From Pirellula sp. SH-Sr6A (GTDB lineage Bacteria; Planctomycetota; Planctomycetia; Pirellulales; Pirellulaceae): 64,000 bases of DNA. The DNA is taken from the NCBI RefSeq assembly GCF_001610875.1, contig NZ_CP011272.1, positions 5,871,988 to 5,935,987 on the forward strand, read 5' to 3'. Below the pieces are notes generated by a model. The model was not told the DNA's origin. It worked only from the letters and a program-made list of their open reading frames with translations, and searched no databases. Of this stretch, positions 17,837 to 40,275 are shown in pieces. Position numbers and translations under genes: made by a program. Each line of letters begins with the position of its first letter. The first letter of the stretch is position 1.

Positions 17837-17936
17837 TATGTAGGCCTGGTTATGTAGGCCTGGTTATGTAGGGCTGGTCACGTGGGGCTGGTCACGTGGG
17901 GCTGGGGCACGTGGGGCTGGGGCACGTGGGGCTGGT
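17837..17936 (+). repeat. Seven 14-15-bp tandem repeats
   Basis: Units begin TATGTAGGCCTGGT (three copies, the third with GGGC) and then change to CACGTGGGGCTGGT or GGGG (four copies). The change from one variant to the other suggests growth by slippage from two ends. The array ends about 80 bases before the tRNA gene. Confidence 0.8.
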
Positions 17937-18016
17937 CAAGGCTGACAAGGAGTCTGATTCCCAAGAAAAGAGACAATTGGGCTAGACGTGTGGGAAAGGA
18001 TCAGTACTATTTGCCC

Positions 18017-18090
<74 letters not shown>

Positions 18091-18117
18091 CTGAATTAAG
18101 GGTATCGAACTCAGTTT

Positions 18118-18132
18118 GACCCTCCGGTTATA
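18118..18132 (+). repeat. GACC-N4-GGTTATR motif, copy next to tRNA
   Basis: GACCCTCCGGTTATA matches the pattern GACC-N4-GGTTATR that is also found on the minus strand of the tRNA anticodon arm (18051-18065). It lies 28 bases after the tRNA 3' end. It may be part of an attachment site; see findings. Confidence 0.45.
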
Positions 18133-18136
18133 CCGA

Positions 18137-18167
18137 CAGGCCGACGCCTTAAAACGTCGGCCTGTTT
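18137..18167 (+). terminator. Rho-independent terminator after tRNA-Met
   Basis: Perfect 10-bp arms CAGGCCGACG (18137-18146) and CGTCGGCCTG (18155-18164) enclose an 8-base loop and are followed by TTT and a second short T-run. This fits an intrinsic terminator for the tRNA transcript. Confidence 0.8.
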
Positions 18168-18800
18168 GCGTTTCTGGCCTTGTTTTTCCCAGTCATTCGC
18201 GAAATTCTCGCCTCTCGAACTCTCCCCATCGAGACTTCTCTCCGACGGCCGGCGCGACATTGGCTAGGGCTGATTTCTCTCCCTCCGCCCAGAACTCTCC
18301 GGACTCTCAAAGTCTCTTGACCCTGGGGTTATGGAAATCGCTCTAACTTCATAACCCTGTTTTGGAAACTCGAAGTTTGGCCTGAAAAATGATAGTTAGC
18401 ACGCGAAAGTGGAACATAACCCGTGCGCACTTGGACTGCCTTTCTGTCGCGCGTTCATAACCTAGCTAACGAACCCAGCGAGTCTTGGGTGATGCGATTG
18501 CCGTTAGCGTTACATTTGATCGGGTTGCCACATCGCGATGGCACCAAGCCATCGAGCCCTCTCGACCTGATGCCCCAAGCATTGCGTTCTTGACTAACAG
18601 TATCGGGTTATAGCCGGCTCGATCGAGCCGCGAGTGGCGGAGCGTGGAGCGACAAATTCGTTCACATCCAACGAGCAGTACTACTTGCCGCTGTATTTTG
18701 CGCGGCATAATCGACCTGAACTTTGCTTTATGATAACCTCCTGAATGAAGAACGTTTATTATCGCCCCGCTAGTCGCGGGGGAATTCTTGGTTATGCACT
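18168..18800. other. Non-coding border region with GGGTTATG inverted motifs
   Basis: No supported gene is seen here. The octamer GGGTTATG or its complement occurs at 18326-18333 (+), 18350-18357 (-) and 18415-18422 (-). The first two form an inverted pair 16 bases apart. The 80-residue open frame on the minus strand at 18466-18708 has no family resemblance. This is the likely left border of the accessory DNA and should also hold the promoter of the ankyrin gene. Confidence 0.45.
18319..18333 (+). repeat. GACC-N4-GGTTATR motif, left of recombinase island
   Basis: GACCCTGGGGTTATG, preceded by TT as in the copy at 23431. With that copy it forms a direct repeat (14 of 17 bases from the leading TT) that brackets the ankyrin-to-HTH gene group. 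Confidence 0.5.
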
Positions 18801-19592
18801 ATGCCTCGTATCGACTTCACAGCACCTCTTATCGTCACTGACACTGAAGACCGTCGCATTACCGACTGGTCGATTTTGAGTCAATTTGTGGGGCGATCTT
18901 TCGAGAACTCAGACATTCTCCGCTACTTCGGTCAGTCGATCGACGAGGTGCCCGTGGCAGTCCTGCTGGATCGGTCGGGCGACATCCAAATCTTGGCCAA
19001 CTCACGAAACAACAGCTTACTCGCGAAGTCCTCGCTTCGATCAATCCGAATGTTAACAGCCGAGGAACTTGACGCTCTTCAAAACTATGTCGAGGGTACT
19101 TGGTCCGATGGTGTCGGGGAATGTCTCGAATTGGACGATATGAGCTTCTACCTTGATCTCGACCAAGTTGACCGCCGGCAGGAGGACGATGGCGTCGTCT
19201 CGCTCGGATCAGGCACCCGTAATTTGTTTCCTGCGATTCATGCAGGCGACATCGGAAAGGTGCGTGCTGCCATTGATGATGGCGAGAACGTTAATGCAAT
19301 TCTTGGTGGCACGACGACACTGGGTTGGGCAATTGCCTTTGCCGACGCATCGATCGCCCATCTCCTGATCGATAACGGTATGGATGTCCATTACCTTGAG
19401 CATGACATGCAGACAGTCCTTGTTTCATGTGCAGCCAGCAGAGACTTTGTTGACGCAGACGCTTCGTCGGTTGTGGTACGTTTGCTTACAATTGGTGGGT
19501 TCGATCATGAAATTAATCGGACGGCCGAGATCGCCGAGCAGCGAGGCAAGGTACAACTCCTGAAGGTTCTGAAGCAACACCAGAATGCGTGA
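18801..19592 (+). CDS. Ankyrin-repeat protein
   Basis: This 263-residue protein has an N-terminal half without recognisable motifs and a C-terminal half with ankyrin-type helices: FPAIHAGDIGKVRAAIDDGE, then TTLGWAIAFADASIAHLLID and NGMDVHYLEH, followed by a third weaker unit. A binding role is likely but the partner is unknown. It begins with ATG and its stop overlaps a possible GTG start of the next gene. Base use looks less biased than in the host genes, consistent with transfer. Confidence 0.65.
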   Translation: MPRIDFTAPLIVTDTEDRRITDWSILSQFVGRSFENSDILRYFGQSIDEVPVAVLLDRSGDIQILANSRNNSLLAKSSLRSIRMLTAEELDALQNYVEGTWSDGVGECLELDDMSFYLDLDQVDRRQEDDGVVSLGSGTRNLFPAIHAGDIGKVRAAIDDGENVNAILGGTTTLGWAIAFADASIAHLLIDNGMDVHYLEHDMQTVLVSCAASRDFVDADASSVVVRLLTIGGFDHEINRTAEIAEQRGKVQLLKVLKQHQNA

Positions 19593-20893: not shown

Positions 20894-20951
20894 TCGACGT
20901 CGGTCAGGCCAAGTGAACTCGCAAAGAAACTACAAACCAATGGAGGTCCCT

Positions 20952-21431
20952 ATGGACTCGGTAACAGCAGCCGAGATTGCAAAGCTGGACACGATGACCG
21001 TTTCCAAGCTGGTCGAGAGATTCGAATCGCTCGTCGGCGACAAGTGCCGGAGTAGAAACAAACGTTACCTCATCCGCCGAATCGCTTGGCGTCTTCAGGC
21101 CAACGCGGAAGGTGGCCTCTCGGAGCGAGCGTTGAAACGTGCGGCCGAGCTCGCACTCGACTCGGAAGTCCGAGTTACTCCACCTCGCGAACACAAACGA
21201 TCCCGAATTGTCGTTGCACCCGTTGAATCGAAACCAGTTCGCGATCTTCGATTACCTCCTGCCGGCTCGATGCTTCATCGAGATTACAAAGGTAGACCAA
21301 TCCGAGTGCTCGTCCACGAGGACGGGTTTGAATACGAAGGCCAACTCTTCAAATCTCTTACTGCAGTTGCCAACACGATCACTGGATCCCACGTGAATGG
21401 ATTTCAGTTCTTTCGATTGAGGAGCACCTAA
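20952..21431 (+). CDS. DUF2924 domain-containing protein
   Basis: This 159-residue protein starts at ATG 20952, six bases after a GGAGG. It carries the DUF2924 pattern: a helical N-terminus with RYLIRRIAWRLQANAEGGLS, then LPPAGSMLHRDYKGRPIRVL, a GFEYEGQLFKSLTAVA segment and ITGSHVNGFQFFRL at the end. DUF2924 genes are commonly found directly before large serine recombinases in mobile elements; their role is unknown, with an accessory factor being a fair guess. The stop overlaps the recombinase start by one base (TAATG). Confidence 0.85.
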   Translation: MDSVTAAEIAKLDTMTVSKLVERFESLVGDKCRSRNKRYLIRRIAWRLQANAEGGLSERALKRAAELALDSEVRVTPPREHKRSRIVVAPVESKPVRDLRLPPAGSMLHRDYKGRPIRVLVHEDGFEYEGQLFKSLTAVANTITGSHVNGFQFFRLRST

Positions 21432-22993
21432 TGACCAATCAACCCAAAAGCACAGGCCCAAAGAACCGCTGTGCCATCTACACACGAAAGTCTTGCGAAG
21501 AGGGACTTGAGTTAGAGTTCAATTCGCTTCATGCCCAGCGAGAATCGGCCGAAGCATTTATTGCGAGCCAACAGCACGAAGGCTGGGAATGCTTGCCGGA
21601 TCGATACGACGATGGCGGATTCTCGGGTGGAACCTTGGATCGCCCCGCTCTTAACCGTCTCCTTGAGGACATCAAGACAGGACGCATCGATTGTGTGGTC
21701 GTCTACAAAGTTGACCGGCTAAGTCGATCCCTGTTGGACTTCTCGCGAATTATGGAGACCTTCGATAAACACGGCGTCTCGTTCGTCTCGGTCACTCAGC
21801 AGTTCAACACGACCCATTCGATGGGCCGCCTTACACTGAACATCCTGTTGTCCTTTGCGCAGTTCGAGCGGGAGATTATTGGAGAACGTACACGAGACAA
21901 GATCGCTGCCCAACGCCGAAAAGGGAAATGGACCGGTGGTATTCCGATCTTGGGTTACGATGTCGACCGTTCCAACGCGAGCCCCAAGCTGGTAGTCAAC
22001 GCCGAGGAAGCGGTTCAGGTTAGGCGCATCTTCTCGTTATACCGAGAGCTCGGATCGCTCCTCCCCGTCGTCAAAGAGGTCAACAAACGCGGCTGGCAAA
22101 ACAAAGTATGGAAGACAAAGAAGGGTGTAACGCGAGGCGGGAAGGCGTTCGACAAATGCTCGATCTACTCGTTGCTGACCAATCCGTTGTACGCTGGTCT
22201 GATTCGCCACAAGGATTTGATCCACAAAGGTGAACACGAAAACCTGATTGAACCCGAAGTATTCGAAGCAGTTCAAAAGCAACTGAAGCATAACGGTCGT
22301 GGCCAGGGAAACCACTTGATTAACAAGCACGGAGCGATCCTCAAGGGACTGCTGCATTGCACCGCCTGCGATCGAGCGATGGTCCATACCTTCACGAGGA
22401 AGGACGAGAAGGTCTACCGGTACTATACATGCACGAACGTCATCAAAAACGGTCGCGGTAAATGCCCATCGCCAAATCTTCCAGCAGGAGAAATCGAGCA
22501 AGCGGTGATCCAGCAGATTCGAGCCGTCGGAGCCGACGTGGAGATTCAGAACCAGGTTGCAGCCCAGATGAAGGCCACCCAATCCAAGCAACTCGATGAA
22601 CTGCAAACGAACCGCCGTCAGTTGGAACGCCAACTTTCACGAGACCACGCCGAAATTGGAAAGCTGGCAGTGATGCATGATCCTACTGGTGCAACGAGCT
22701 CACGAATCGCCGACCTCCATGTCCGCATCACGAAATGCGAGTCAGACCTTTCCCGCATAATTGCGAGCCTCACGGAATTGGAGCGTCGCGCAACGGAAAA
22801 GGGGGAGATCGCCGAAGCGGTACTCGACTTCGAATCGATCTGGGAGGCGTTCAACAGCCGCGAAAAGAGCCGGCTGATTCGCTTGATGGTCTCGCGGATC
22901 GAATTCAACGCCAAAGACACATCGATTGCAGTAACGTTCTATCCCGATGCACTCCGTTCCCTCAAAGTCAAGAGAAAGGATGATGCCGCATGA
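21431..22993 (+). CDS. Large serine recombinase (site-specific integrase)
   Basis: This 520-residue protein has the resolvase catalytic domain at the N-terminus. CAIYTRKSCEEG contains the nucleophilic serine near residue 20, followed by RYDDGGFSGGTLDRPAL, the Arg-rich VVYKVDRLSRSLLDFS and FAQFEREIIGERTRDK. A recombinase domain (WTGGIPILGYDVD...) follows, then the zinc ribbon GLLHCTACDRAM with YYTCTNVIKNGRGKCPS, and a C-terminal coiled coil. This is the architecture of phage and ICE integrases that recombine attP and attB without supercoiling. It lies about 3.4 kb from the tRNA, as expected of an integrase near one end of its element. Confidence 0.93.
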   Translation: MTNQPKSTGPKNRCAIYTRKSCEEGLELEFNSLHAQRESAEAFIASQQHEGWECLPDRYDDGGFSGGTLDRPALNRLLEDIKTGRIDCVVVYKVDRLSRSLLDFSRIMETFDKHGVSFVSVTQQFNTTHSMGRLTLNILLSFAQFEREIIGERTRDKIAAQRRKGKWTGGIPILGYDVDRSNASPKLVVNAEEAVQVRRIFSLYRELGSLLPVVKEVNKRGWQNKVWKTKKGVTRGGKAFDKCSIYSLLTNPLYAGLIRHKDLIHKGEHENLIEPEVFEAVQKQLKHNGRGQGNHLINKHGAILKGLLHCTACDRAMVHTFTRKDEKVYRYYTCTNVIKNGRGKCPSPNLPAGEIEQAVIQQIRAVGADVEIQNQVAAQMKATQSKQLDELQTNRRQLERQLSRDHAEIGKLAVMHDPTGATSSRIADLHVRITKCESDLSRIIASLTELERRATEKGEIAEAVLDFESIWEAFNSREKSRLIRLMVSRIEFNAKDTSIAVTFYPDALRSLKVKRKDDAA

Positions 22994-23388
22994 TAACGGT
23001 GCACCAAAAACTATCGATCACGAAAACCCATCGAGGCCGCAGACGACTGGAGCCTCGCCCTGAAGAACAACCGGTGAAGCCAACCAGCAGCGTTCCCAGA
23101 ATCTCTCGACTGATGGCACTGGCGATCAAGTATCAGGGGATGCTTGATCGTGGCGAAGTGGCGGGCATCACGGAACTCGCAAGGCTTTGTCGAGTCACTC
23201 AACCACGAATGACGCAAATCCTGAATCTCAATTTGCTCAGTCCGTCCATTCAGGAGCAGCTCCTGCACCTGCCGCCACATTCCTCCGGCAAGCAGGCGAT
23301 TCACGAAAAGAAGCTTAGAGCGGTGTGTGCACATACCGATTGGGGGTCCCAACAATTGCACTTCGCCCGCTGCTGTTCAAGCAAATGA
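22990..23388 (+). CDS. Small HTH protein of the recombinase operon
   Basis: This 132-residue protein starts at an ATGA overlap with the recombinase. Its basic N-terminus (HRGRRRLEP) is followed by a helix-turn-helix-like segment, ITELARLCRVTQPRMTQILN, and then LLSPSIQEQLLHLP, resembling ParB/KorB-type HTHs. Genes of this kind repeatedly follow DUF2924-recombinase pairs, so a directionality or accessory role is inferred. The C-terminal 30 residues look less conserved. Confidence 0.65.
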   Translation: MITVHQKLSITKTHRGRRRLEPRPEEQPVKPTSSVPRISRLMALAIKYQGMLDRGEVAGITELARLCRVTQPRMTQILNLNLLSPSIQEQLLHLPPHSSGKQAIHEKKLRAVCAHTDWGSQQLHFARCCSSK

Positions 23389-23430
23389 ATTGAGATCCGA
23401 TCGTTTTCACGATTTCTGGTCGTGCCTCTT

Positions 23431-23445
23431 GACCGCCGGGTTATG
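23431..23445 (+). repeat. GACC-N4-GGTTATR motif, left arm of 16-bp inverted repeat
   Basis: TGACCGCCGGGTTATG at 23430-23445 is the exact reverse complement of 26922-26937. The two arms bracket the XRE-ImmA island. It is also a direct partner of the copy at 18319. Confidence 0.7.
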
Positions 23446-23452
23446 TCTCGTC

Positions 23453-23467
23453 ATGCTTACTAAGCAT
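23453..23467. promoter_or_regulatory. Operator-like palindrome upstream of the XRE gene
   Basis: ATGCTTACTAAGCAT is a perfect 6-bp dyad with a 3-base centre, 45 bases before the XRE start. The core TGCTTACTAA recurs upstream of the gene at 24687. This fits autoregulation by the XRE protein. Confidence 0.6.
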
Positions 23468-23511
23468 TAAACGCCATCGCGTCCAATCCATACTGGTACC
23501 CGGCGAAAACC

Positions 23512-23871
23512 ATGGCTTCCACAGCAAAAACCTTCGGGAAAGTTCTCCGTGAACGGCGACTCGCGTGCGGCTTTGGCCTGCGAGAATTTGCCCAGATGGT
23601 TGGCGTGAGCTCCACCTATATTTCGCAGTTGGAGCAGGAGAATATCGATCCGCCAACGGCCGAACGAGCGGCCAAGATGGCTGGGATTTTGGGTGAGAAT
23701 GCCGACGAATGGATCGCACTGGCTGGTCGAGTGCCCGATGACCTAGAAGGAATCATTCAGAAGGAGCCCATCGGGATGCCGGCGCTTCTGCGTGAAGCGA
23801 ATGGCCTTACCGCTGAACAACTGAAAAGACTCGCTGAAGAAGCCAAGAAGATGAAAGGGGGAAAGTCATGA
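23512..23871 (+). CDS. XRE-family transcriptional regulator
   Basis: This 119-residue protein has a lambda-repressor-type HTH at residues 5-60: FGKVLRERRLACGFGLREFA, then MVGVSSTYISQLEQENIDPP. The C-terminal part is short and charged. It overlaps the ImmA/IrrE peptidase gene by four bases (ATGA), the usual arrangement in which the peptidase cleaves the repressor to induce the element (known for ImmR/ImmA of ICEBs1). Similar HTH-peptidase pairs also act as toxin-antitoxin or defence modules. Confidence 0.88.
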   Translation: MASTAKTFGKVLRERRLACGFGLREFAQMVGVSSTYISQLEQENIDPPTAERAAKMAGILGENADEWIALAGRVPDDLEGIIQKEPIGMPALLREANGLTAEQLKRLAEEAKKMKGGKS

Positions 23872-24620
23872 ACGAGCGATTCTCACTCGTTGATCGCCAG
23901 GTCCCTTACCTTCATGAGAAGCAAATCGAGCGCGAGGCTCGTTTCCTCCTCGATGAGTACGAGCTCAAGTTCGAACGCAAGGTCACAGCACCGATTCCGT
24001 TGGAAAAGATCACCGAATTCCAGCTGCAGTTGACGCTGGAATTTAAGGACATGAAGTCCTTATTTCCGTTTGCTGACGTGCATGGGGCGATCTGGTTTGA
24101 AGAGGGAATCATCGGTATCGATCAAAGCCTCAATCCGGACGAGAACCCGTTGATGCTAGGGCGATACCACTTCACGTTGGCCCACGAACTTGGGCATTGG
24201 TGCCTCCACCGGCATCTCTACAAAGAGAATCCCAATCAGCCAATGTTGTTCGAAGATGGTGTTCGCGTGCCCGATGTCGTCTGCCGGTCCAGCGAACGCA
24301 AGAAACCTGTGGAATGGCAGGCCGATGCGTTTGCCGCCAACCTGCTCATGCCAAAGCCCCTCGTCTTCCAGGCATGGGCAGAGCACCACGACGGAGATGA
24401 TCAGCCTGCGGAAATGGCGACCTTGCGTCCAGCGAGTGCGGACAAGTCTTTTTCGCTTCGAGGTCGCTTGGCCACCACAGCGGAAGAGCGAGATGCCGCA
24501 ATCAAGGAACACTATGCTGCCCCTTTTGCAGAACGCTTCAGCGTCTCGAAGGAAGCGATGCGAATTCGACTAGAAGAACTCAAACTGTTCGTCGAGAACC
24601 GACCTCGATTGCTGTTCTGA
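23868..24620 (+). CDS. ImmA/IrrE family metallopeptidase
   Basis: This 250-residue protein contains the zinc peptidase motif HELGH in FTLAHELGHWCLHRH near residue 104. The downstream glutamate motif appears as EWQADAFAANLLMPK, typical of the family. The C-terminus has a winged-helix-like stretch (RFSVSKEAMRIRLEELKL). It most likely cleaves or inactivates the XRE protein encoded just upstream, to which it is translationally coupled. What triggers it is unknown. Confidence 0.9.
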   Translation: MNERFSLVDRQVPYLHEKQIEREARFLLDEYELKFERKVTAPIPLEKITEFQLQLTLEFKDMKSLFPFADVHGAIWFEEGIIGIDQSLNPDENPLMLGRYHFTLAHELGHWCLHRHLYKENPNQPMLFEDGVRVPDVVCRSSERKKPVEWQADAFAANLLMPKPLVFQAWAEHHDGDDQPAEMATLRPASADKSFSLRGRLATTAEERDAAIKEHYAAPFAERFSVSKEAMRIRLEELKLFVENRPRLLF

Positions 24621-24637
24621 TATTTTTTTACCCAAAT

Positions 24638-24654
24638 TGCTTACTGCTTACTAA
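24638..24654 (+). promoter_or_regulatory. Second operator-like site (TGCTTACT repeated)
   Basis: TGCTTACT (24638-24645) overlaps by one base with TGCTTACTAA (24645-24654). The latter has the same core as the palindrome at 23453. The site lies 33 bases before the next start codon, so the XRE protein probably also controls the two downstream genes. Confidence 0.55.
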
Positions 24655-24686
24655 TCAGATGATTCGATCAAAAGGAGCTACAGAAG

Positions 24687-25871
24687 ATGGCAACATTCGA
24701 CTTGAAGAAACAACTAACGATTCACGACCGTGGCCTGCTTCAGCAGCTTCTGGGAAATGAACCCTCGATGCAAGCAATCGAGTGGGCTGCGATGCCAAAA
24801 AACAACATCGCGCCACTTATCGCTGCATGGGAAGCGATGGACGACGCCAGGAAACGGCACTACCAAGTTATCCTTCAGGACGTCCAGCACCTAGCTGAGC
24901 CGACAGCGCTGAAAGTACTGATCGAGGAGCTTGAGTGGAGGCACCCTGACAAGCTGCCGATCTTTTCAGCACAGTTGGGCACTGCGGACAAGGCGCTTTG
25001 GGCTTACCAGAATGCCACCGACGCGTTCGATGCGGCAGCAATCTTTGCTCGCGCCGAAGCTCTCCGGAACGGCCAGCAAGCAAACATCTGGAACAGCCTG
25101 CCAAAGGAACCCATTGCTGTCACCCCAGACAAAATCAGCTCCCTTGAGCAGCGAATCCGCTCCTACTACTGGGGTCGAGAGATGCGGGGCGAAGTATGCA
25201 AGGTCCATCAGTATGATCGCCACGACGGTTCGCAGTACTTCTTTGCTTACCTACCCGATTGGCCTGACAAGCGACTTTGCTTTGATGAGCAAGAACAACT
25301 AACACCTCGAGAAGATGCATACGCCTTCAGCAACGCCTTCGTGTTCGAACCAAATCTCGGCACCATCGAGCTGATTGCGAAAGGCGGAAAGAAGGTTCAG
25401 AAAGAACTTCGCCGTGCGTTTTGTCTGTCGATGCTTGGAATCGAAGTAGATGACGAAGATCCCGTCAAGCCGGTGTATCAGCTTGATCAGTTACTCGATC
25501 CAAGTTTCGCTTTTGTTACCGAGGCCAACGAGCGCATCCAGGATGTGAAACTACGACGGGTACGGATTGTCCCACGAGTGAAGGTACCCAACATCGAGCA
25601 GATCGAATTCAAGTTTCGTGAAGCCACCGATCTTTCAAGCATTCGATCATTTCTTGCGGCGCAACTAGCCTCCATGCAACTTGGCTTCGACCAGATCAGC
25701 GTGACTCAAGCCGGTATCCAATTCCAATTCATGGGTAATGGCGACCGCAAAGGGAAAACCATGACGGTCAATGTGAGTTGCCCCAATACCTGCGACCTCA
25801 AATTCAAACCAGAGGAACAGGAGCTGATTGGTCGCGCCTGCTTCGTTCGCTGGGGGATCATCAATGGTTGA
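24687..25871 (+). CDS. Unrecognised protein of the XRE-ImmA island (first)
   Basis: This 394-residue protein starts at ATG 24687 after AAAGGAG. I recognise no family. The first 130 residues are helical (TIHDRGLLQQLLGNE, then WRHPDKLPIFSAQL); the middle has a beta-rich segment (YYWGREMRGEVCKVHQYDRH, YFFAYLPDWPDKRLCF) and the C-terminus includes MTVNVSCPNTCDLKFKPEE. No Walker, nuclease or membrane motif is visible. Its own operator-like site and tight overlap with the next gene suggest a two-protein effector under XRE control. Confidence 0.7.
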   Translation: MATFDLKKQLTIHDRGLLQQLLGNEPSMQAIEWAAMPKNNIAPLIAAWEAMDDARKRHYQVILQDVQHLAEPTALKVLIEELEWRHPDKLPIFSAQLGTADKALWAYQNATDAFDAAAIFARAEALRNGQQANIWNSLPKEPIAVTPDKISSLEQRIRSYYWGREMRGEVCKVHQYDRHDGSQYFFAYLPDWPDKRLCFDEQEQLTPREDAYAFSNAFVFEPNLGTIELIAKGGKKVQKELRRAFCLSMLGIEVDDEDPVKPVYQLDQLLDPSFAFVTEANERIQDVKLRRVRIVPRVKVPNIEQIEFKFREATDLSSIRSFLAAQLASMQLGFDQISVTQAGIQFQFMGNGDRKGKTMTVNVSCPNTCDLKFKPEEQELIGRACFVRWGIING

Positions 25872-26832
25872 CCCATTGGAATATCTACTGCCGATGATTG
25901 AGTCGCAGCAAATGACTGTGGGTAACGACGAAGTTTCTCGGTGGCCGACTGGAGTACTCCAAACTCTAACGGATCTGGGGATTCTCGTCTCGGCCGAAGA
26001 TGCCGACTCGATTCGTTGTCCTGAGTGCGGTGAACATTGGGAGGAGATTTTCGCTATGGATGGCCCCGGCGATTCCACTCAATTGTTCATTCGTTGCCCT
26101 GAAGTCTTGCGGATCGAAGTTACCCAGCAGCACCGACGGCAATGGCGTCCCGATCTCTCATCGCTGATGCGATTCCTTGCGTCGTCGCTGAATCTCAAAG
26201 GAAAGCCACAGGAGCTATTCTCAGAACGTCTGTGGCGTTTGGGACGACTTACCTGGAACAAAGTGTCTCGCGACGTGCTGTTCGTCCGAGGCCTCCGCTG
26301 GCCGGATGCCGAGCTGCCTCGTGCTCAAATTGTTCGGCAACGAAAGCCGATCCTAATCAGCTCCACGTACGCGATGCCGGAAGAGTACTGGAAGACACCT
26401 CCGCCCCAATTGGTCCTTCGGAATATCGCTTGGTTCGCGGATCGATTCGAAATCGATGTGGAAGAAGTGGCTGCTTGCATTGCGGATGCAACCAAGAAGG
26501 TTGGCGATTCTCCGATTCTGGGTGTTACAGAAGAGGAATTGAAGCTGACGATTCGCCGGCAGATCAAAGCAGAGAACAAGACGGAACTGACGGACGACAT
26601 TTACGTCAGGGCATATCGCCAATTAGGTTCACTTCGTTTGGCAGCGGAATTCCTCTCGGACCAAACTAACGCGATAGTCACTAAAGATAGGGTGAAACGA
26701 GCGATCGATCGCTACGGAGGTATTCCTTCGCTGGCCAACGAGGAGGATTCAAATTCGATCGTTCGTGGTGTCGCGTCGCACCACCGCGACAGGAAAGGAA
26801 AAAATCTAGCAACAGGAAAACCCACGAAATGA
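25864..26832 (+). CDS. Unrecognised zinc-finger-like protein of the XRE-ImmA island (second)
   Basis: The ATG at 25864 overlaps the preceding stop by eight bases and is preferred over the upstream GTG in the open frame, giving 322 residues. An N-terminal zinc-finger-like part has CPECGEHWEE and a later RCPE. The middle includes RLWRLGRLTWNKVSRDVLFV. The C-terminal part is helical with an HTH-like stretch (LGSLRLAAEFLSDQTNAIVT, then KDRVKRAID). I cannot assign a function. The C-terminal HTH would allow DNA or regulator binding. Confidence 0.68.
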   Translation: MVDPLEYLLPMIESQQMTVGNDEVSRWPTGVLQTLTDLGILVSAEDADSIRCPECGEHWEEIFAMDGPGDSTQLFIRCPEVLRIEVTQQHRRQWRPDLSSLMRFLASSLNLKGKPQELFSERLWRLGRLTWNKVSRDVLFVRGLRWPDAELPRAQIVRQRKPILISSTYAMPEEYWKTPPPQLVLRNIAWFADRFEIDVEEVAACIADATKKVGDSPILGVTEEELKLTIRRQIKAENKTELTDDIYVRAYRQLGSLRLAAEFLSDQTNAIVTKDRVKRAIDRYGGIPSLANEEDSNSIVRGVASHHRDRKGKNLATGKPTK

Positions 26833-26854
26833 AAGGAGATTCGCAAATCTCGAC

Positions 26855-26891
26855 TGTCGCACGCTGACGCGCAACCGCGTCAGATGCGACA
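26855..26891. other. Strong hairpin after the XRE-ImmA island
   Basis: TGTCGCA (26855-26861) and CTGACGCG (26864-26871) pair with CGCGTCAG (26876-26883) and TGCGACA (26885-26891) around a CAAC tetraloop. That is 15 base pairs with a small internal loop. No T-run follows, so it is not a classical terminator. A second stem CTGACC/GGTCAG (26898-26903 with 26933-26938) lies right behind it. Confidence 0.7.
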
Positions 26892-26921
26892 CGGCAGCTG
26901 ACCTCCGAGGGCTTCGAGGCC

Positions 26922-26936
26922 CATAACCCGGCGGTC
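26922..26936 (-). repeat. GACC-N4-GGTTATR motif, right arm of 16-bp inverted repeat
   Basis: CATAACCCGGCGGTCA at 26922-26937 is the perfect complement of 23430-23445. Extended to the left (from about 26915, CGAGGCCCATAACC...GGTC) it matches the initiator tRNA anticodon arm of this window at 18 of 22 positions by eye. Confidence 0.7.
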
Positions 26937-27034
26937 AGAAAGTTACCTGTGACGTTTCTGCAATTTTCGCAGCACAGATTCTTGTAGCACTGATGGAATT
27001 GCCAGGCTGCAGCCTCCGCCCTCAGGAGGTTGCC

Positions 27035-27622
27035 ATGTCGGCACAACCACAGGATGTACTTTCTGATTACGCTCGGACTCTTATTCGAGTAAAGGCCCGC
27101 CAGCTGGTCCGTCGGCCAGAGTTCACTGTTTGCGAAGCGGAAGACCTTGAACAGGAGCTTACGCTTCGAATTCTACTTCAGCTCGACCGCTTCGATCCAA
27201 CCCGAAGTTCCATCAACACCTTTTTCGTACGCGTTGTCAACTCGTCCGTAGCGATGTTGATCCGTGAGCGAGGTAGGATCAAACGAAATGGTGGCGAAGG
27301 CGTCGAGATCGAGTCCTTGGAAAAGATGGTCGAGAAGGCGGATGGATCACCGGCTCCGCTCTGGACCACGATCTCTGACCAAGACGCACATCGACGGCAT
27401 CAATCACGTCCTCTCTCGGACTCGGAAGCGATGCAACTTCGAATGGACATCGCGTCCGTTCTTGAGCAACTTCCGCCGGATCTGCGAAGCATCTGCAAGC
27501 AGTTATTGGCTGGAGGTCATACCGATACTCGACGAGACAGCCAACTCTCTCGCCGCAAGTACCAAGCGGCAATGAGCCTGATACGGGAGCAGTTTACCCG
27601 TTCAGGTTTCTCGTCTGAGTAA
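27035..27622 (+). CDS. Sigma-70-like phage transcription factor
   Basis: The ATG at 27035, with AGGAGG eight bases before it, is preferred over upstream starts (195 residues). Region 2-like features are CEAEDLEQELTLRILLQLDR followed by FDPTRSSINTFFVRVVNSSV. The C-terminal part resembles a degenerate region 4 (LEQLPPDLRSICKQLLAGGH, then SRRKYQAAMSLIREQ). It is the first gene of the early phage region and may direct polymerase to phage promoters. Divergence in region 4 makes recognition of ordinary -35 boxes doubtful. Confidence 0.75.
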   Translation: MSAQPQDVLSDYARTLIRVKARQLVRRPEFTVCEAEDLEQELTLRILLQLDRFDPTRSSINTFFVRVVNSSVAMLIRERGRIKRNGGEGVEIESLEKMVEKADGSPAPLWTTISDQDAHRRHQSRPLSDSEAMQLRMDIASVLEQLPPDLRSICKQLLAGGHTDTRRDSQLSRRKYQAAMSLIREQFTRSGFSSE

Positions 27623-27713: not shown

Positions 27714-28002
27714 TTTCCGGTTCACATTCGACGAGTCTGTGCCAATCGAAGAGGCCGAAATGACTCTGCATCTTGCAATCTTCGCTGCCGAGGGCCTGTT
27801 CGGCAAACCACGCGTTGCGATGGAGTTTCACTACGACATCCAGCCATTCGACAATTTCATCGATGTCCACGGTGAAACCGAAGTTGGTGTCGCGGTCGCG
27901 CAGGTTTTTGGAGGCCTGCTCTTGCGAGAGTTTGGCGAATCGGCATTTCGAATCACCAACCTTCCATCCTATGACTCTTTCAGTCATGAGGTGGCCGCGT
28001 GA
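27700..28002 (+). CDS. Hypothetical early phage protein
   Basis: This 100-residue protein has no recognised domain. It is acidic, with alternating beta-like stretches (MEFHYDIQPFDNFIDVHG). Its start lies inside a stem-loop and its end overlaps the next start (GTGA). Position suggests a role in the early replication or recombination operon. Confidence 0.6.
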   Translation: MFAGVFRFTFDESVPIEEAEMTLHLAIFAAEGLFGKPRVAMEFHYDIQPFDNFIDVHGETEVGVAVAQVFGGLLLREFGESAFRITNLPSYDSFSHEVAA

Positions 28003-28778
28003 GCATGCTATCCAAATTGCAGCGTGGTCGAACAGCAAAACCACCTCGCATTCTTTGTTACGGAATTGAGGGCGTCGGCAAATCAACCTTTGCGTCACAA
28101 GCACCCAAACCGGTCTTCATTCAATGCGAGGACGGATTGGATGAGCTTAATGTCGACAAGTTTCCGTTGGCGACCAGGTACGACGAGGTGATCTCCGCTT
28201 TGGCTGATCTGCAGCGAGAGTCGCACGACTACGAAACCGTGGTGATCGATTCGTTGGACTGGCTTGAGCGATTGGTCTTCGACCGATTGTGTGCGGAACA
28301 CAACGCAACATCGATTGAACAGGTCGCGGGTGGATATAGCAAAGGCTACACCCTCGCGCTGACCTATTGGCGAGAGATCATCGAGCATCTCAACGCGCTG
28401 AGGAATCAGCGAGGAATGGTCGTGTTGTTGATCGCTCATAGCAAGGTTGAGCGATTCGAGGATCCCGAGTCATCGCCTTATGACCGTTATTCTCCACGGC
28501 TGCATAAACACGCAGCTGCACTGATGAGCGAATGGTGCGATGCCGTACTGTTTGCCACACGGAAGATTCGTACCCAATCCGAAGACGCCGGCTTCAATCG
28601 CAAACGGACCATCGCTCATGCCATCGGCAAAGGTGGTGGTGAACGAATCTTGCGGTGTGTTGGCGGCCCTTCATGTGTCGCAAAGAACAGGTACGGAATC
28701 GTCGAAGAGTTGCCGCTCTCCTGGGCGGCGTTTGTTCAAGCAATTTCTCAATCACAAGGAACTCAAAGTAATGGCTGA
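27999..28778 (+). CDS. RecA-fold phage ATPase (Sak4-like recombination protein)
   Basis: This 259-residue protein has Walker A as CYGIEGVGKSTFA near residue 23 and a Walker B region at YETVVIDSLDWLE. FIQCEDGLDEL and VVLLIAHSKVERFE follow, the pattern of phage nucleotide-binding proteins of the Sak4/RecA-like group, which promote single-strand annealing in phage recombination. The GTG at 27999 is used by overlap with the upstream gene; an ATG follows two codons later. It is followed by a DUF669 protein and RusA, a coherent recombination set. Confidence 0.82.
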   Translation: MSMLSKLQRGRTAKPPRILCYGIEGVGKSTFASQAPKPVFIQCEDGLDELNVDKFPLATRYDEVISALADLQRESHDYETVVIDSLDWLERLVFDRLCAEHNATSIEQVAGGYSKGYTLALTYWREIIEHLNALRNQRGMVVLLIAHSKVERFEDPESSPYDRYSPRLHKHAAALMSEWCDAVLFATRKIRTQSEDAGFNRKRTIAHAIGKGGGERILRCVGGPSCVAKNRYGIVEELPLSWAAFVQAISQSQGTQSNG

Positions 28779-36188: not shown

Positions 36189-36509
36189 CTAGATCTTCTG
36201 GCAGTGCCAATGCCCGTCTTCAAAGACGTAGAGATAGTTCGCATCGCAGTTGCGTGCGAACGTGACGAGCGACGCTCGGTCGCAAAGATGCTTTGGGAGC
36301 CGCGCCCGAGGGAAGTACTCGGGCGCCCCATCGCTCGCATTCAAACTTCGCAGCTCACCTCCGGCGATTAATGCCGAGGCCTTCTCGATGGAGTTGTACC
36401 ATTGGTTGAGAACCACCCCAGCATGTTCCGGGTAGCCATCGAAGTGCAGGTAGGCGGCTTGGTAGCCCCCGTCGCTGTTCGCACAGGCGATCGTTGCTCG
36501 TGTCGACAT
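36189..36509 (-). CDS. Conserved small phage protein
   Basis: This 106-residue protein begins MSTRATIACANSDGGYQAAY and continues LHFDGYPEHAGVVLNQWYN, a pattern I recall from many phage and plasmid proteins of unknown function. It converges on the methyltransferase with a 2-base gap and is the last gene of the leftmost transcription unit in the minus-strand cassette. Confidence 0.72.
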   Translation of the reverse strand: MSTRATIACANSDGGYQAAYLHFDGYPEHAGVVLNQWYNSIEKASALIAGGELRSLNASDGAPEYFPRARLPKHLCDRASLVTFARNCDANYLYVFEDGHWHCQKI

Positions 36510-36521
36510 GGTTTGGTCCCT

Positions 36522-36740
36522 CTACGATTGGAAGTTCTCGGGGGTAATGATCTTGATGATGTCACCGGGAATGGTCAGCATGAGGGAGCGGCCGCTATCC
36601 CAATCGACTTCGACCTGCGTCCAGCCATGGTGGGGGTGGACCTTCCGAACCGTGCCGACGGAACCTCGTGGTATGGGATCGGGATCATCAGGCATCGCGA
36701 TCAGTCGAATCCGATCACCGACGTTGGGAATTCTTGTCAT
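36522..36740 (-). CDS. DUF4314 domain-containing protein
   Basis: This 72-residue protein fits DUF4314: VGDRIRLIAMPDDPDPIPRG is followed by SVGTVRKVHPHHGWTQVEVD and WDSGRSLMLTIPGD. It looks like a small SH3-type barrel. The function is unknown; it is common in phages and mobile elements. It lies 12 bases before the next gene of the same unit. Confidence 0.82.
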   Translation of the reverse strand: MTRIPNVGDRIRLIAMPDDPDPIPRGSVGTVRKVHPHHGWTQVEVDWDSGRSLMLTIPGDIIKIITPENFQS

Positions 36741-36758
36741 TGTTTGGTTTTCCTTCGT

Positions 36759-37019
36759 CTAGAGAATCTTGCCGAGGAGGCTTTTCTTCATCGCATCGAT
36801 CGCTTCGCATGCGAGGAGGTGTTCGGTCAACAGAGGGCCGGCCGTTTGTGGTTGCTGTGCGTCGGCGATCTCAAGCATCTCCATCAAGGTGTGGAGCCCT
36901 TCCACCGTCTTGTAGTAGGCTTCGCGAATCTCTTGCGCTTGGTGCGGGTCCATCGTGCGGAATGCGTCGCGGAGGATCTTTTCGTCGATCTTGCGTTGGG
37001 GGTTGGTCGCGTCGTTCAT
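36759..37019 (-). CDS. Hypothetical small helical phage protein
   Basis: The ATG at 37019 has a CGGAG ribosome site and is preferred over the longer frame, giving 86 residues (MNDATNPQRKIDEKILRDAF...). It is helical and charged, with no recognised domain. The promoter-like repeat at 37056-37104 lies directly upstream, so this gene heads the unit 37019 to 36189. Confidence 0.6.
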   Translation of the reverse strand: MNDATNPQRKIDEKILRDAFRTMDPHQAQEIREAYYKTVEGLHTLMEMLEIADAQQPQTAGPLLTEHLLACEAIDAMKKSLLGKIL

Positions 37020-37055
37020 CGTTGTTGCTCCGTGTTCGGAAACCTGTTTTCGTTG

Positions 37056-37104
37056 GGCGTTAACACCAATGAGCCATGCCGTGCGCAAAGCCTCAAGTCA
37101 ATTC
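37056..37104 (-). promoter_or_regulatory. Promoter-like repeat, copy 1
   Basis: Read on the minus strand, AATTGACTTG is followed by a GC-rich spacer, then GGCATGGCTCATTGGTGTTA and ACGCC. The block is shared with copies at 38640 and 39096. TTGACT is a good -35 box; the conserved CATGGCTCAT at the -10 position is not a normal sigma-70 hexamer. It lies 37 bases before the start of the downstream gene. Confidence 0.6.
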
Positions 37105-37265
37105 AAAAAAGGATTCGATGCTTTTTCGGAGAATGTTTTGAAGCCCCACAATCGCCACCGTTTGCCCCCGGTCGCGTCGCGTTGCATGTTGGGGTAACGA
37201 CGCCATTTCACGACCGAACGCCCACACATCGCAAACGTGGGGCGTTGGTGCGAAGCCGGCGATCC

Positions 37266-37505
37266 TCAGCGCTGAGGCCAATTTCGAACCTTGATCATTT
37301 CGAAACCATCAAAGCCGGAGACCGCATAGTCTCGGCCGTTGTACCCTCGCGCGATCAATCGATCCCCCCGGCGCTCGACATACGCGATGGTGGTGTCGAG
37401 CGAGGAATCGTCGATGGATTGGACTTCGTAGGAATAATCGGGTTCGGGAATAGCCCGCTCGCCGTCGGCCAAGTCGGTAACCAAGCGAAGTTGTCCGATG
37501 TGCAT
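37266..37505 (-). CDS. Hypothetical small phage protein
   Basis: This 79-residue protein (MHIGQLRLVTDLADGERAIP...) has a beta-rich look and no recognised family. A perfect palindrome CCTCAGCGCTGAGG (37264-37277) overlaps its stop codon and may end transcription. It appears to be the last gene of the unit that starts at 38600. Confidence 0.55.
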   Translation of the reverse strand: MHIGQLRLVTDLADGERAIPEPDYSYEVQSIDDSSLDTTIAYVERRGDRLIARGYNGRDYAVSGFDGFEMIKVRNWPQR

Positions 37506-37607
37506 GTCAGGAATCTATGTTGGGTTTGCGATGGGATGGAGAAAGGGTATCGAGCCCTTCGGCATTCGAACGCTCGATCTCAACGGCTCGGTTGCTTGGG
37601 TCGCTGG

Positions 37608-38177
37608 TCATTGGGTTACCTCTGCGCTCGCGTTGGCAGGAGCGAATCGCCCTCGTTCGGTTTTGATGAACCGCGAAGCATCTCCCTTTCCGATCTCGCG
37701 GAGGATGGCGCTGTAGAGCGTCGCGTGGGGTGTCTTGCCACCGGGGCTGGTCCAGTACCCCTTGGCGGTCATCGCTTCGATCATCTGCTGAACGTTCAGC
37801 GGTTCGGTAGCTTCGCAAAGAACCTTGTGGGCAGCAGCCAAAGCGCTAAGCCGTTTGGGTTGATCGCCATCGGGTTTCTTGAGAACTCGCTTCGGTTTGG
37901 TCGCCGGCTGTTGGGGACCGTCGAACGCGATCACCTCGGCGGGTTCGTTCTCGACAACGGTGAGGTTGTCGGTCGTGGTGACCTTGGCCGAACCCTTGCG
38001 GGGTGCGACTTCCCCCTGCAACCGCTGTGCGGTTCGGATAATGATTTTCTTGCCGGTAGCCAGGTTCGTGGCGAACCAACCGCCCCCGGTTTTCTCGCTA
38101 TCGATTCGGATCTCGACTCTCTTGCCGGTGACGTTTGCGTAGTACTTGCCACCGATCTTGACCTCTGCCTTTTTCAT
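37608..38177 (-). CDS. HARE-HTH-like (HB1/ASXL-type) winged-helix protein
   Basis: The ATG at 38177 follows GGGGAGA and is preferred (189 residues). The N-terminus (VKIGGKYYANVTGKRVEIRI) forms a small barrel-like domain. The C-terminal half fits the HARE-HTH fold: LSALAAAHKVLCEATEPLNV, then QQMIEAMTAKGYWTSPGGKT and LYSAILREIGKGDASRF. In bacteria this domain occurs in restriction and DNA-modification proteins and in RNA polymerase delta, and senses or binds DNA. A role in reading modified DNA is only a suggestion. Confidence 0.72.
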   Translation of the reverse strand: MKKAEVKIGGKYYANVTGKRVEIRIDSEKTGGGWFATNLATGKKIIIRTAQRLQGEVAPRKGSAKVTTTDNLTVVENEPAEVIAFDGPQQPATKPKRVLKKPDGDQPKRLSALAAAHKVLCEATEPLNVQQMIEAMTAKGYWTSPGGKTPHATLYSAILREIGKGDASRFIKTERGRFAPANASAEVTQ

Positions 38178-38222
38178 CTGCCTGTCTCCCCTGTAGGAAC
38201 CGTGGTTAGCTGCCATCGTCAG

Positions 38223-38244
38223 GCCGCTCGCACTACCGAGCGGC
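38223..38244 (-). terminator. Hairpin between minus-strand genes
   Basis: GCCGCTCG (38223-38230) and CGAGCGGC (38237-38244) form a perfect 8-bp stem with a 6-base loop behind the gene ending at 38274. No long T-run follows, so termination may be partial. Confidence 0.5.
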
Positions 38245-38273
38245 GATCTCGATCGCGTCGAGATTTCGGCTTA

Positions 38274-38600
38274 TTACCCGAAGACCAAATCGGCCAATCC
38301 CATTCCGAGGAAGTCGACCAAGACCTGGATCTCGGTGGTCGCGGCGGGTACATCCAACCCGCGGTCGAAATTGAAGAGGGTCTTCTTCGTTTCGAGGTCT
38401 TGGATCCAAAGCTTCGAGATCTTGGTTCGTCCGAGCTCGTACTCTTCGCACTCTGCATGTTCGGAGAAAACCAAAGCATCGAATCGGTATGCGTTGTTGA
38501 TCTTGCCTCGAACCCAAGAACCGCCGGCACCTGGGGTTCGGTGGCTGATCTTCGTGATCTTGAGGTCGAAGTCCGTGGTGTCGTTCTCGTTGTGGGTCAT
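38274..38600 (-). CDS. Conserved small phage protein (DUF7678-like?)
   Basis: This 108-residue protein includes WVRGKINNAYRFDALVFSEH and GRTKISKLWIQDLETKK with LFNFDRGLDVPA. The pattern SKLWI...FDRG recalls a family of small phage proteins now catalogued as DUF7678, but I am not certain. The promoter-like repeat at 38640 lies directly upstream and a hairpin follows the gene. Confidence 0.6.
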   Translation of the reverse strand: MTHNENDTTDFDLKITKISHRTPGAGGSWVRGKINNAYRFDALVFSEHAECEEYELGRTKISKLWIQDLETKKTLFNFDRGLDVPAATTEIQVLVDFLGMGLADLVFG

Positions 38601-38639
38601 GTTTGCGTTTCCGTATCGGAAGGGGTGGTGAATCGTTTG

Positions 38640-38690
38640 GCGTTAACACACATGAGCCATGCGGTTCGCAACACAGCAAGCAGCATTCGC
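38640..38690 (-). promoter_or_regulatory. Promoter-like repeat, copy 2
   Basis: On the minus strand: TTGCTGTGTTGCG, then AACCGCATGGCTCATGTGTG and TTAACGCC. It matches copy 3 almost throughout the right half; the -35-like hexamer here is TTGCTG. It lies 40 bases upstream of the gene starting at 38600. Confidence 0.6.
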
Positions 38691-38733
38691 ATTCATTTGC
38701 AGAAATGTTTTCAGGTTTCCCCCACATGCGAAA

Positions 38734-38759
38734 AAGCTCGCCCTAATCGGAGCGAGCTT
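38734..38759 (-). terminator. Rho-independent terminator (minus strand)
   Basis: AAGCTCGC (38734-38741) and GCGAGCTT (38752-38759) form an 8-bp stem with a 10-base loop. On the minus strand the stem is followed by TTT. It lies just behind the gene ending at 38778. Confidence 0.75.
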
Positions 38760-38777
38760 CGTAAAACAACTAGGCAT

Positions 38778-39059
38778 TTAGTTGCCCCGAGCGACGTCCC
38801 ATGCTCGCTTGGTTCCATAACCAAGCTGCCTACCCTCCACGATGAAGAGGACCGCATCCTCGGCCACATCGTCATCGTCGTCCCCCTCGTCGGCTTCACC
38901 GTCGTCATCGACGTAGTCGTTGATCTCCAATCCAGATGCGAGCCCGTAAATCGAGTTCTCAAAGGGCCAGTTCTGCTGCGTCATCAATCGCACCTCGGCA
39001 TCGCCACCGATCTCATCTCGGTACTCCCCGAGCCGTCCAATCAATTCATCGATCGTCAT
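38778..39059 (-). CDS. Acidic small phage protein
   Basis: The ATG at 39059 is preferred over the longer frame (93 residues). MTIDELIGRLGEYRDEIGGD and AEVRLMTQQNWPFENSIYG recall a common small phage protein of unknown function. A run of aspartate and glutamate (EADEGDDDDDVAED) interrupts the C-terminal part. It has its own promoter-like repeat and its own terminator, so it is a stand-alone transcription unit. Confidence 0.68.
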   Translation of the reverse strand: MTIDELIGRLGEYRDEIGGDAEVRLMTQQNWPFENSIYGLASGLEINDYVDDDGEADEGDDDDDVAEDAVLFIVEGRQLGYGTKRAWDVARGN

Positions 39060-39095
39060 GTTTGTTTCTCCCGTGTCTTCGAAAATGGATATCCA

Positions 39096-39145
39096 ACGAA
39101 CGTCATCACACATGAGCCATGCCGTTGGAAACACAGCAAGTCAAT
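39096..39145 (-). promoter_or_regulatory. Promoter-like repeat, copy 3
   Basis: On the minus strand: AATTGACTTGCTGTGTTTCC, then AACGGCATGGCTCATGTGTG. This is the most complete copy, with TTGACT and the CATGGCTCATGTGTG block. It lies 37 bases upstream of the gene starting at 39059, the same distance as copy 1 from its gene. Confidence 0.65.
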
Positions 39146-39320
39146 TACCGAAACCATCAGCAGCAATTCCAAAGATTCATTCGCGCCCCAACAAACCAAC
39201 GACGTTCGCATGTGTCGCGTTGAGATGCGTGGTTGGGGGTTTACTAAGCGATACCCGAGAATGGCGTTTTGTGGGGCACTGTCGCGTCCGGTTCCCCTGA
39301 ATCATTCCAGTAATGGACAA

Positions 39321-39342
39321 CGCCGCTCGAGTGGGAGCGGCG
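39321..39342 (-). terminator. Hairpin terminator behind the amidoligase gene
   Basis: CGCCGCTC (39321-39328) and GAGCGGCG (39335-39342) form a perfect 8-bp stem with a 6-base loop. On the minus strand TTG follows, so the T-run is short. Confidence 0.6.
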
Positions 39343-39362
39343 CTGTTGATCTCTGGGTTGAA

Positions 39363-40220
39363 CTACGCAGCTTGGTCGTACTTCCTCGCCATCTCGAGGA
39401 GCTTGCTCTTGATGGCCTTCCAATCTCGCTGGGTCTCGCCGGTGATTTCACCAAATCGCTTGTCGCGAAGCTCGCCCTTGTACCAACCTTTGGTCCATCC
39501 GAGCCGGTAGAAGAGTCGGTTGAGTTCCGTTTCGCCAAGGCCGGCTCCTGGTCGATCCCAGCAGCTCGTCGTTCCGTCTTTCTTCGCGTAGTCCCAATCC
39601 GCGCATCGCTTGGTGTTCATCGCGAGTTCGACCAATCCGAGAACCATCATCAGGTATCCGACCACCTTGGTCTTGTTGAGCGTTCCGGCGAAGGCTCGAA
39701 ACTCGATTCGGTTTTTACCGGCAGCCAGGTGCGTGAGGTTCAGCAGGTGGTATCGATCGGCTTCGCATCGGTTCTTCGCGGTGTCTTTGTCCCCGTACTG
39801 TTTGATCCGCTTGGTGTAGATCGTTTGTTCGCGGCGTCGTGTTCCCGTGCTTGCGAAGATCGCCTTCTCGTGGTTGCCGACCAAGGAAATCAATCTGGCC
39901 AAGGCGGCTGCGTCGCCATCCCAAGAGATACTCACATGGAGCCCGCAGGTTTTATTAACCCGTCCTCCGTGTTCGTTGATCTTGTCGATCGCTTCTTCGA
40001 TTTGTTTGAGGCCTTCGTACCCTTTAAGCTTGGGGCTTACGAACTCGCATCCCTTGCGGTTGGGTGTCTCGGGTTTGATGCTCGCATCCCGTTCGGCTCG
40101 CCATCCGGTGGGGAGCCAAGGCACTTGGTAGCCGTGGTGGTAGGGGCCAATCGGTGTGGTGTCGCTGTTGGGCAGCGTCGTTTCGAACTCCAGACCGAAG
40201 TGGATTTCGTTTGCGTTCAT
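39363..40220 (-). CDS. Amidoligase family protein (COOH-NH2 ligase)
   Basis: This 285-residue protein fits the putative amidoligase family of the glutamine-synthetase-like fold. Motifs are IHFGLEFETTL at the N-terminus, WRAERDASIKPE with GCEFVSP, then NKTCGLHVSISWDGDA and RYHLLNLTHLAAGKNRIEFR. The family joins carboxyl and amino groups using ATP and is found in phages and conserved gene clusters that make or attach peptides. Its partner substrate is not clear. It is the first minus-strand gene of the cassette, read away from the terminase region. Confidence 0.85.
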   Translation of the reverse strand: MNANEIHFGLEFETTLPNSDTTPIGPYHHGYQVPWLPTGWRAERDASIKPETPNRKGCEFVSPKLKGYEGLKQIEEAIDKINEHGGRVNKTCGLHVSISWDGDAAALARLISLVGNHEKAIFASTGTRRREQTIYTKRIKQYGDKDTAKNRCEADRYHLLNLTHLAAGKNRIEFRAFAGTLNKTKVVGYLMMVLGLVELAMNTKRCADWDYAKKDGTTSCWDRPGAGLGETELNRLFYRLGWTKGWYKGELRDKRFGEITGETQRDWKAIKSKLLEMARKYDQAA

Positions 40221-40275
40221 CTTTGTCTCTCTGTTTGGGTTGGTTGGGTCGGTTGGTTGCGATCGCCATGTTGCT

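Follow-up and report, generated by a model that had tools for sequence, protein, structure and literature searches.

The window analyzed here, a stretch of 64,000 nucleotides (nt) from the 6.53 Mb chromosome of Pirellula sp. SH-Sr6A, carries within a prophage an XRE-type repressor gene, an ImmA-type metallopeptidase gene, and the genes of two early proteins, named here U1 and U2, followed by a phage sigma factor gene, sig. The first four genes probably represent the lysogeny switch of a temperate planctomycete phage and its first lytic operon, with a structured RNA leader gating the translation of sig. Comparative sequence analysis supports this reading through conserved synteny, recurring operators, a covarying leader, occlusion of the Shine-Dalgarno (SD) sequence of sig, and a single RNA copy in each locus, located at the sig start codon.

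Among the matches listed from the protein collection, 136 relatives were found for U1 and 76 for U2, and 111 loci of U1 relatives (57 from genomes and 54 viral) were fetched. The order XRE-ImmA-U1-U2-sig is kept in 72 of the 85 loci with enough sequence on both sides; considering testable loci, U2 accompanies U1 in 102 of 107, sig does so in 100 of 105, and a Sak4-like gene is found downstream in 81 of 88. Regarding the 13 loci that depart from the full order, eight retain U1-U2-sig with no XRE-ImmA pair on that strand, three of which (L044, L101, and L110) have an upstream ImmA-like open reading frame (ORF) on the opposite strand, and the remaining five (L013, L041, L042, L109, and L111) lack U2, sig, or both. 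From this gene order, U1-U2 is read as the core early operon of the phage, followed by the sigma factor and replication genes. The sig product passes the curated cut-off of the sigma-70/ECF family, is also recognized by Sigma70_r2 (34.3 bits, cut-off 24), and matches phrog_1740 (E 2.1e-8).

Conservation of the gap between U2 and sig extends to phages in which the two flanking proteins share as little as ~30% identity. A covariance model, R1, trained on the leaders of 61 of the loci plus that of the window, detects a single copy (E ≤ 0.01) in 100 of the 111 loci, and a sequence profile gives one match each in 99. The leader RNA is present in 98 of the 101 loci having sig, ending at most 12 nt from the expected sig start in 94 of these 98 and more than 40 nt away in the other four; the three sig loci without RNA at threshold are L014, L052, and L111, the first of which the covariance model does find. 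Genome surveys, which used strict filters and some of whose matches come from the same assemblies as training loci, found the RNA nine times among 392 genomes of the phylum (8 genomes) and 20 times among 397 of the class (16 genomes). All 26 distinct matches lie directly before sig, and U2 is found upstream of the RNA in 23 of them, the exceptions being L120, L155, and L158, the last of which ends at a contig end. In L155 and L120, RNA and sig occur with no detectable U1 or U2, and in L006, L007, L009, L011, and L148 an extra gene (the same ORF in the latter two) separates U2 from the RNA, which stays with sig. Thus, where it is found, the RNA goes with sig and, as in cis-regulatory leaders, a conserved structure with covariation is linked to a single downstream gene. 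The inserted ORF, of 126-130 residues, resembles by eye a LexA-type N-terminal helix-turn-helix. As for L155, no XRE, ImmA, U1, or U2 is detectable in 3.2 kb, and DUF2924 and a serine recombinase lie upstream on the opposite strand.

The structure of the leader, drawn by hand from the 62-leader alignment, consists of six helices, namely P2, P4a, P4b, P5, and the two-part pseudoknot P6. As drawn, 83.9% of its 2144 cells are paired, versus 34-45% after sliding the partners by 1-3 columns, and 147 cells are changed on both sides versus 60.7 in shuffles, none of 500 shuffles reaching 147. G-U cells exceed A-C cells in P4 (59:9) and P2 (14:2), and therefore the RNA is likely on the same strand as sig (+); mean folding z-scores over 31 leaders (every second row) are -3.9 for the plus and -2.7 for the minus strand. 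RNAalifold recovers from the full alignment only the inner part of P4. In one group of leaders the CATAACC segment has two alternative partners, one upstream (P3) and one downstream (P6), and might act as a switch. The SD sequence, matched in at least four of five positions in all 62 leaders, has a mean probability of being unpaired below 0.2 in 81% of them, versus 35% of 620 shuffles, and by the same measure in 8-38% of the starts of six other genes (XRE, U1, ImmA, DUF669, helicase, and Sak4; 43-78 starts each).

Several observations weigh against such a leader gating sig. Regarding the alignment, (i) the structure was drawn from the very alignment on which it was evaluated, which favors the drawn over the slid versions, (ii) measures at the level of pairs are weaker, with 22 pairs changed on both sides versus 17.5 (7/500 shuffles) and pair types at 12/500, (iii) P2 and P6a are 94% paired each in a group of 30 leaders, but 56% and 60% in the other 32, and (iv) P5 as drawn is only 80% paired, with G-U to A-C ratios being less lopsided both there (59:30) and in P6 (13:6). 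Regarding the window leader itself, its minus strand folds relatively better (z -4.25) than its plus strand (z -2.39), its minimum-energy fold differs from the consensus one, and its pseudoknot P6 is no better than in shuffles (z +0.68), P6 averaging z -1.3 across the 62 leaders, 58% of them below -1. In addition, the SD sequence is unpaired with a probability above 0.3 in 11 of 62 leaders, and 22 of 61 loci have, by a loose rule, a terminator-like hairpin separating U2 from the RNA, which clouds how the leader gets transcribed there. Finally, 18 of 24 survey U1 loci, mostly distant relatives, gave no RNA at E ≤ 0.01 with default filters, and with strict filters 7 of the 23 genomes having U1 (of the 392 surveyed in the phylum) gave an RNA match; beside distant U1 relatives, the RNA has either diverged beyond the model or is absent.

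The conserved signal extends into the coding end of U2. There, the last conserved motif of the protein, VASxxRD, retains identical codons in 91-100% of the rows having the residue (codon identity 0.83-1.00 observed versus 0.25-0.54 expected, with a mean excess of 0.03 in earlier conserved columns), and its nucleotides form a dyad here called P0. A P0 pattern allowing some variation is found in 86 of 99 loci, always (86/86) 93-97 nt before the RNA; nine of the 13 loci outside the pattern nearly match it by eye and four (L087, L105, L106, and L107) do not. The U2 stop codon lies 50-79 nt before the RNA, except for 417-427 nt in three loci and one outlier at -447. P0 is in frame 0 of U2 in 83/83 cases, whereas in loci with an inserted gene it sits in frame 2 at the end of that gene, the distance in L148 being again 96 nt. 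Its retention in a different gene and frame marks it as a signal at the nucleic-acid level that overlaps protein code. From P0 to the RNA, the spacer (26792-26884 in the window, and its counterparts in relatives) is near-constant in length and little conserved in sequence, with isolated AA/TT positions ~20 nt apart, and might be under a DNA-geometry constraint.

Table 1. Features of the switch, the early operon, and the sig leader, followed by neighboring blocks (window positions)
Feature	Position	Strand	Basis
XRE repressor (ImmR/CapH-like)	23512..23871	+	Pfam HTH_31 1.9e-11; PADLOC capH 8e-11
ImmA/IrrE-type (M78, CapP-like) metallopeptidase	23868..24620	+	PF06114 2.4e-11; PADLOC capP 4e-20; HExxH at 24183
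U1, 394-residue early protein	24687..25871	+	weak CENP-N/CENP-L/RdgC-like fold
U2, 322-residue early protein	25864..26832	+	invariant CxxC..H..C, C-terminal helix-turn-helix
sig, phage sigma-70/ECF family factor, start ATG 27035	27035..27622	+	TIGR02937 46.7 bits (cut-off 42.9); Sigma70_r2 2e-8
Structured RNA leader of sig	26885..27037	+	covariance model R1, 92.7 bits in window (one of the 62 rows training the model)
P4 hairpin (CUGUG...CACAG), best-supported helix	26947..26977	+	93-96% of cells paired; compensatory change in 8/12 pairs
P5 hairpin, CCUCC pairs SD GGAGG of sig	27013..27029	+	alignment, covariation, folding
P0 dyad TGTCGCGTCGCA-N4-CGCGACA in U2 coding end	26769..26791	+	frozen synonymous sites; fixed distance to RNA
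Palindromic operator TGCTTACTAAGCA at XRE promoter	23454..23466		sequence inspection
Doubled operator TGCTTACTGCTTACTAATCA ahead of U1	24638..24657		equivalent GTTTACYGT in relatives
Left repeat arm: -35-like TTGACC and spacer element GGTTATG of lysogenic (XRE-ImmA) promoter	23429..23445	+	reverse complement of RNA element 26922-26937
Right repeat arm: conserved RNA segment CATAACC-N4-GGTCA in U2-sig gap	26922..26937	+	conservation in leader alignment
Integration block upstream of switch: DUF2924, large serine recombinase, phrog_14161 protein	20913..23388	+	Pfam, PHROG
Sak4-like recombinase ATPase, early in downstream replication block	27999..28778	+	phrog_124 9e-44; synteny

Regarding the switch itself, the preliminary description of this DNA had named an XRE regulator coupled through ATGA to an ImmA peptidase, together with an operator core occurring as a palindrome before the XRE gene and doubled before U1, and all of these are in place. 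The two ORFs share a 4-nt overlap (ATGA) and the peptidase HExxH motif is HELGH, at residue 106. The core TGCTTACTAA is found exactly in the window at 23454 and 24645 only, and allowing one mismatch gives five matches versus 0.77 expected, none of 100 shuffles reaching five. In relatives, exact GTTTACYGT is present in 49 of 90 ImmA-U1 gaps (7.1/kb versus 0.015/kb elsewhere), so the operator is not in all of them, and many XRE promoters have operator-like sites across their -10 region. With an XRE-type helix-turn-helix gene, an adjacent M78 peptidase bearing HExxH, and a common conserved operator, the pair looks like an ImmR/ImmA (CapH/CapP-like) lysogeny switch of known kind. Judging from the shared operator, a single XRE/ImmA pair could plausibly govern U1-U2 as well as its own operon, in line with the control within a prophage originally suggested. 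In nine loci (L072-L077, L079, L081, and L103), 5-9 kb lie between the lysogenic promoter element and XRE, as if there were a cargo site under the repressor promoter, and a weak helicase match is found in that stretch in L049, L073, and L104.

The perfect 16-bp inverted repeat (23430-23445/26922-26937), which had been taken to bracket the four genes, does exist, but it is not a border: its right arm lies within the conserved RNA that runs to the sig start codon. The window holds two such 16-mer inverted pairs, with ~0.5 expected by chance (our estimate; ~0.001 within 3.5 kb), and the repeat alone is weak evidence; its weight comes from each arm being conserved in other phages. In relatives, the lysogenic promoter is commonly TTGACC-N4-GGTTATG, followed by the operator/-10. 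Since the two arms are regulatory sites conserved independently of each other, the repeat was rejected as the borders of a transposon or cassette. The complement of a locus's own RNA element reaches at least 80% best-match identity in 29 of 83 loci, many of them close relatives, versus 2 and 2 in control orientations, the two same-orientation matches (L060 and L108) being the RNA matching itself. Among the 29, which include the window's own prophage (L059), 26 have the match at the promoter and three (L032, L091, and L110) elsewhere; for many of the remaining loci the promoter may lie outside the stretch searched. A regular-expression promoter scan gave matches in 17 of the loci listed and none in the window's own group, and a sigma-70 promoter scan of the window region gave no match. 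Antisense pairing between XRE promoter and leader is not supported, since the middle four bases fail to covary by eye. The element also resembles the anticodon region of tRNA-Met (18017-18091), and an attachment-site or tRNA reading is conceivable, but window positions 17851-18900 share no exact 14-base repeat, in direct or inverted orientation, with the 26 kb that start at 56 kb. ATAACC/GGTTAT hexamers cluster at the tRNA-Met and left end of the prophage (17848-18795), with eight within 700 nt out of 23 in 64 kb, including TTGACC-N4-GGTTAT at 18116 and 18317. No other locus examined at that stage had at least four such hexamers in 500 nt, and four of the five TGACCNNNNGGTTAT sites of the genome are in the window at 18.1-26.9 kb.

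U1 and U2, whose ORFs overlap, had been described as two coupled genes outside any recognized family, and database searches largely agree. Neither protein has a Pfam match above cut-off (the best for U2 is DUF7836, at E 0.1 and 12.9 bits versus 26.7 required), an NCBIfam match at E ≤ 0.01, or a PADLOC match at E ≤ 1, and neither has a relative at E 1e-5 among 50,697 deposited phage records; U1 does match phrog_37634 (E 2.5e-25), a PHROG of unknown function. In the structure search, Foldseek found nothing in the PDB at E ≤ 0.001 for either protein, and the fold of U1 weakly resembles those of CENP-N/CENP-L and RdgC, the resembling chains being what we take to be CENP-L and Chl4. The CxxC..H..C motif of U2 is a putative Zn site.

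With regard to what the region between P0 and the sig start does, a more elaborate version of the proposal is also conceivable, albeit rather unlikely. It takes P0 and a 163-position pseudoknot-capable domain as a bipartite leader gating sigma translation as an undescribed phage RNA switch, in which CATAACC-N4-RGTCA would be recognized by a single phage regulator (U2 or U1) both in the leader RNA and in the double-stranded DNA of the lysogenic promoter, thereby coupling lysogeny shut-off to sigma synthesis. The region might instead be a DNA element, such as a replication origin or a multi-site operator, bound by U1/U2, with incidental hairpins; the fixed 93-97 nt between P0 and RNA in all 86 loci, with a little-conserved spacer and A/T positions ~20 nt apart, the weak RdgC/CENP-N-like fold of U1, and a weak cumulative GC-skew minimum of the prophage at 25810 would fit it. 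Nonetheless, the excess of G-U over A-C in P4 and P2, the occlusion of the SD sequence, the end at the start codon, and the RNA and sig of L155 and L120 with no detectable U1/U2 make it improbable. A low likelihood is likewise assigned to the RNA acting on transcription, as in put/nut-like antitermination of the long sig-replication operon, rather than on sig translation: although it stands at the head of a long operon and terminator-like hairpins occur between U2 and the RNA in 22/61 loci, these terminators lie before the RNA, the SD pairing is specific to sig, and in nearly all loci the RNA stops at the sig start codon. The initial view of U1 and U2 as a discrete two-effector cargo for defence or superinfection exclusion, under XRE-ImmA as CBASS (cyclic oligonucleotide-based antiphage signaling system) is under CapH/CapP, is very improbable despite the best PADLOC scores of XRE and ImmA being capH/capP, the defence operons controlled by ImmRA-like pairs (PMC10233336), and the extra DNA between lysogenic promoter and XRE in some relatives, and was rejected because U1-U2-sig is a syntenic core inseparable from the phage, retained in the eight testable loci with no XRE-ImmA pair in place, and neither protein matches a defence family in PADLOC; the four-gene group does recur, as had been proposed for checking, but replication rather than defence genes follow it.

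The prophage begins at ~18.8 kb and spans window positions 18.8-63.4 kb, where IMG/VR contig 2687453341_000007 (44,559 bases; locus L059), which is this prophage, maps to 18801-63359. Downstream of Sak4 it encodes DUF669, a RusA-like ORF (our own label, with no family search behind the name), helicase, Prim-Pol (primase), ParB/methyltransferase, terminase, portal, capsid, tail fibre, and tape measure proteins; the 1365-residue phage ORF at 36402-40499 has no Pfam match at E ≤ 0.001. Among the 57 genome loci, 50 are labelled Planctomycetota, and the other seven are metagenome-assembled genomes (L010, L015, L028, L035, L043, L047, and L048) that may be mis-binned. In genome G368, the second copy of the module (L121) looks decayed, with U1 and U2 fragmented and GCG at the position of the sig start codon.

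Returning to the proposal of a lysogeny switch followed by a leader-gated sigma gene, XRE would sit in the lysogen on operators of the TGCTTACTAAGCA type at its own and the U1 promoters. Upon DNA damage, ImmA would cleave XRE, by analogy with ImmR/ImmA and CapH/CapP (PMC10233336), and U1-U2 would be transcribed. A second gate would be the structured, pseudoknot-capable mRNA leader pairing the SD sequence of sig; a ligand, a protein (U1 or U2, for example), or a ribosome moving through the end of U2 might refold it. The sigma factor would then serve later phage transcription, the next stage being driven by it or by its operon.

This planctomycete phage group thereby gains a defined switch, an operator, a core early operon, and a sigma factor. 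The sig leader, with 62 aligned sequences, a covariance model, and strong covariation, is a testable candidate RNA family, and its location would allow an RNA decision to time the phage program. P0, at a fixed distance even in another gene and frame, illustrates a nucleic-acid signal overlapping protein code.

In comparison with known systems, the sig leader shares with riboswitches, protein-bound leaders, and thermosensors a conserved fold before one gene, an SD sequence in a hairpin, and competing pairings, but differs in being absent from Rfam 15, whose covariance models gave no match on the window region to E = 5 or on five relatives to E = 1, and in being found so far in planctomycete-type loci. 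Among the titles and abstract openings listed for SD-controlled leaders, phage sigma factors, and candidate structured RNAs, none describes it, and those listed for planctomycete phages comprised a single fish-transcriptome study. The Rhodopirellula-1 motif (Weinberg 2010, PMC2864571) is a candidate RNA from Planctomycetes, and also Proteobacteria, entered in a table row with no Rfam number, and is the one published motif to which the sig leader might conceivably belong. Of the early proteins, U1 bears a weak likeness to the CENP-N/CENP-L and RdgC folds. With ImmR/ImmA, CapH/CapP, and DdrO/IrrE, the switch has in common an XRE repressor, an overlapping M78 HExxH peptidase gene, shared operators, and a mobile element; unlike them, it stands ahead of a phage early operon running into an RNA-led sigma gene, and repressor cleavage is proposed by analogy. 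Similarly, sig matches both the sigma-70/ECF family (TIGR02937) and the phage sigma factors of phrog_1740, and it is set apart from them by its conserved SD-occluding leader.

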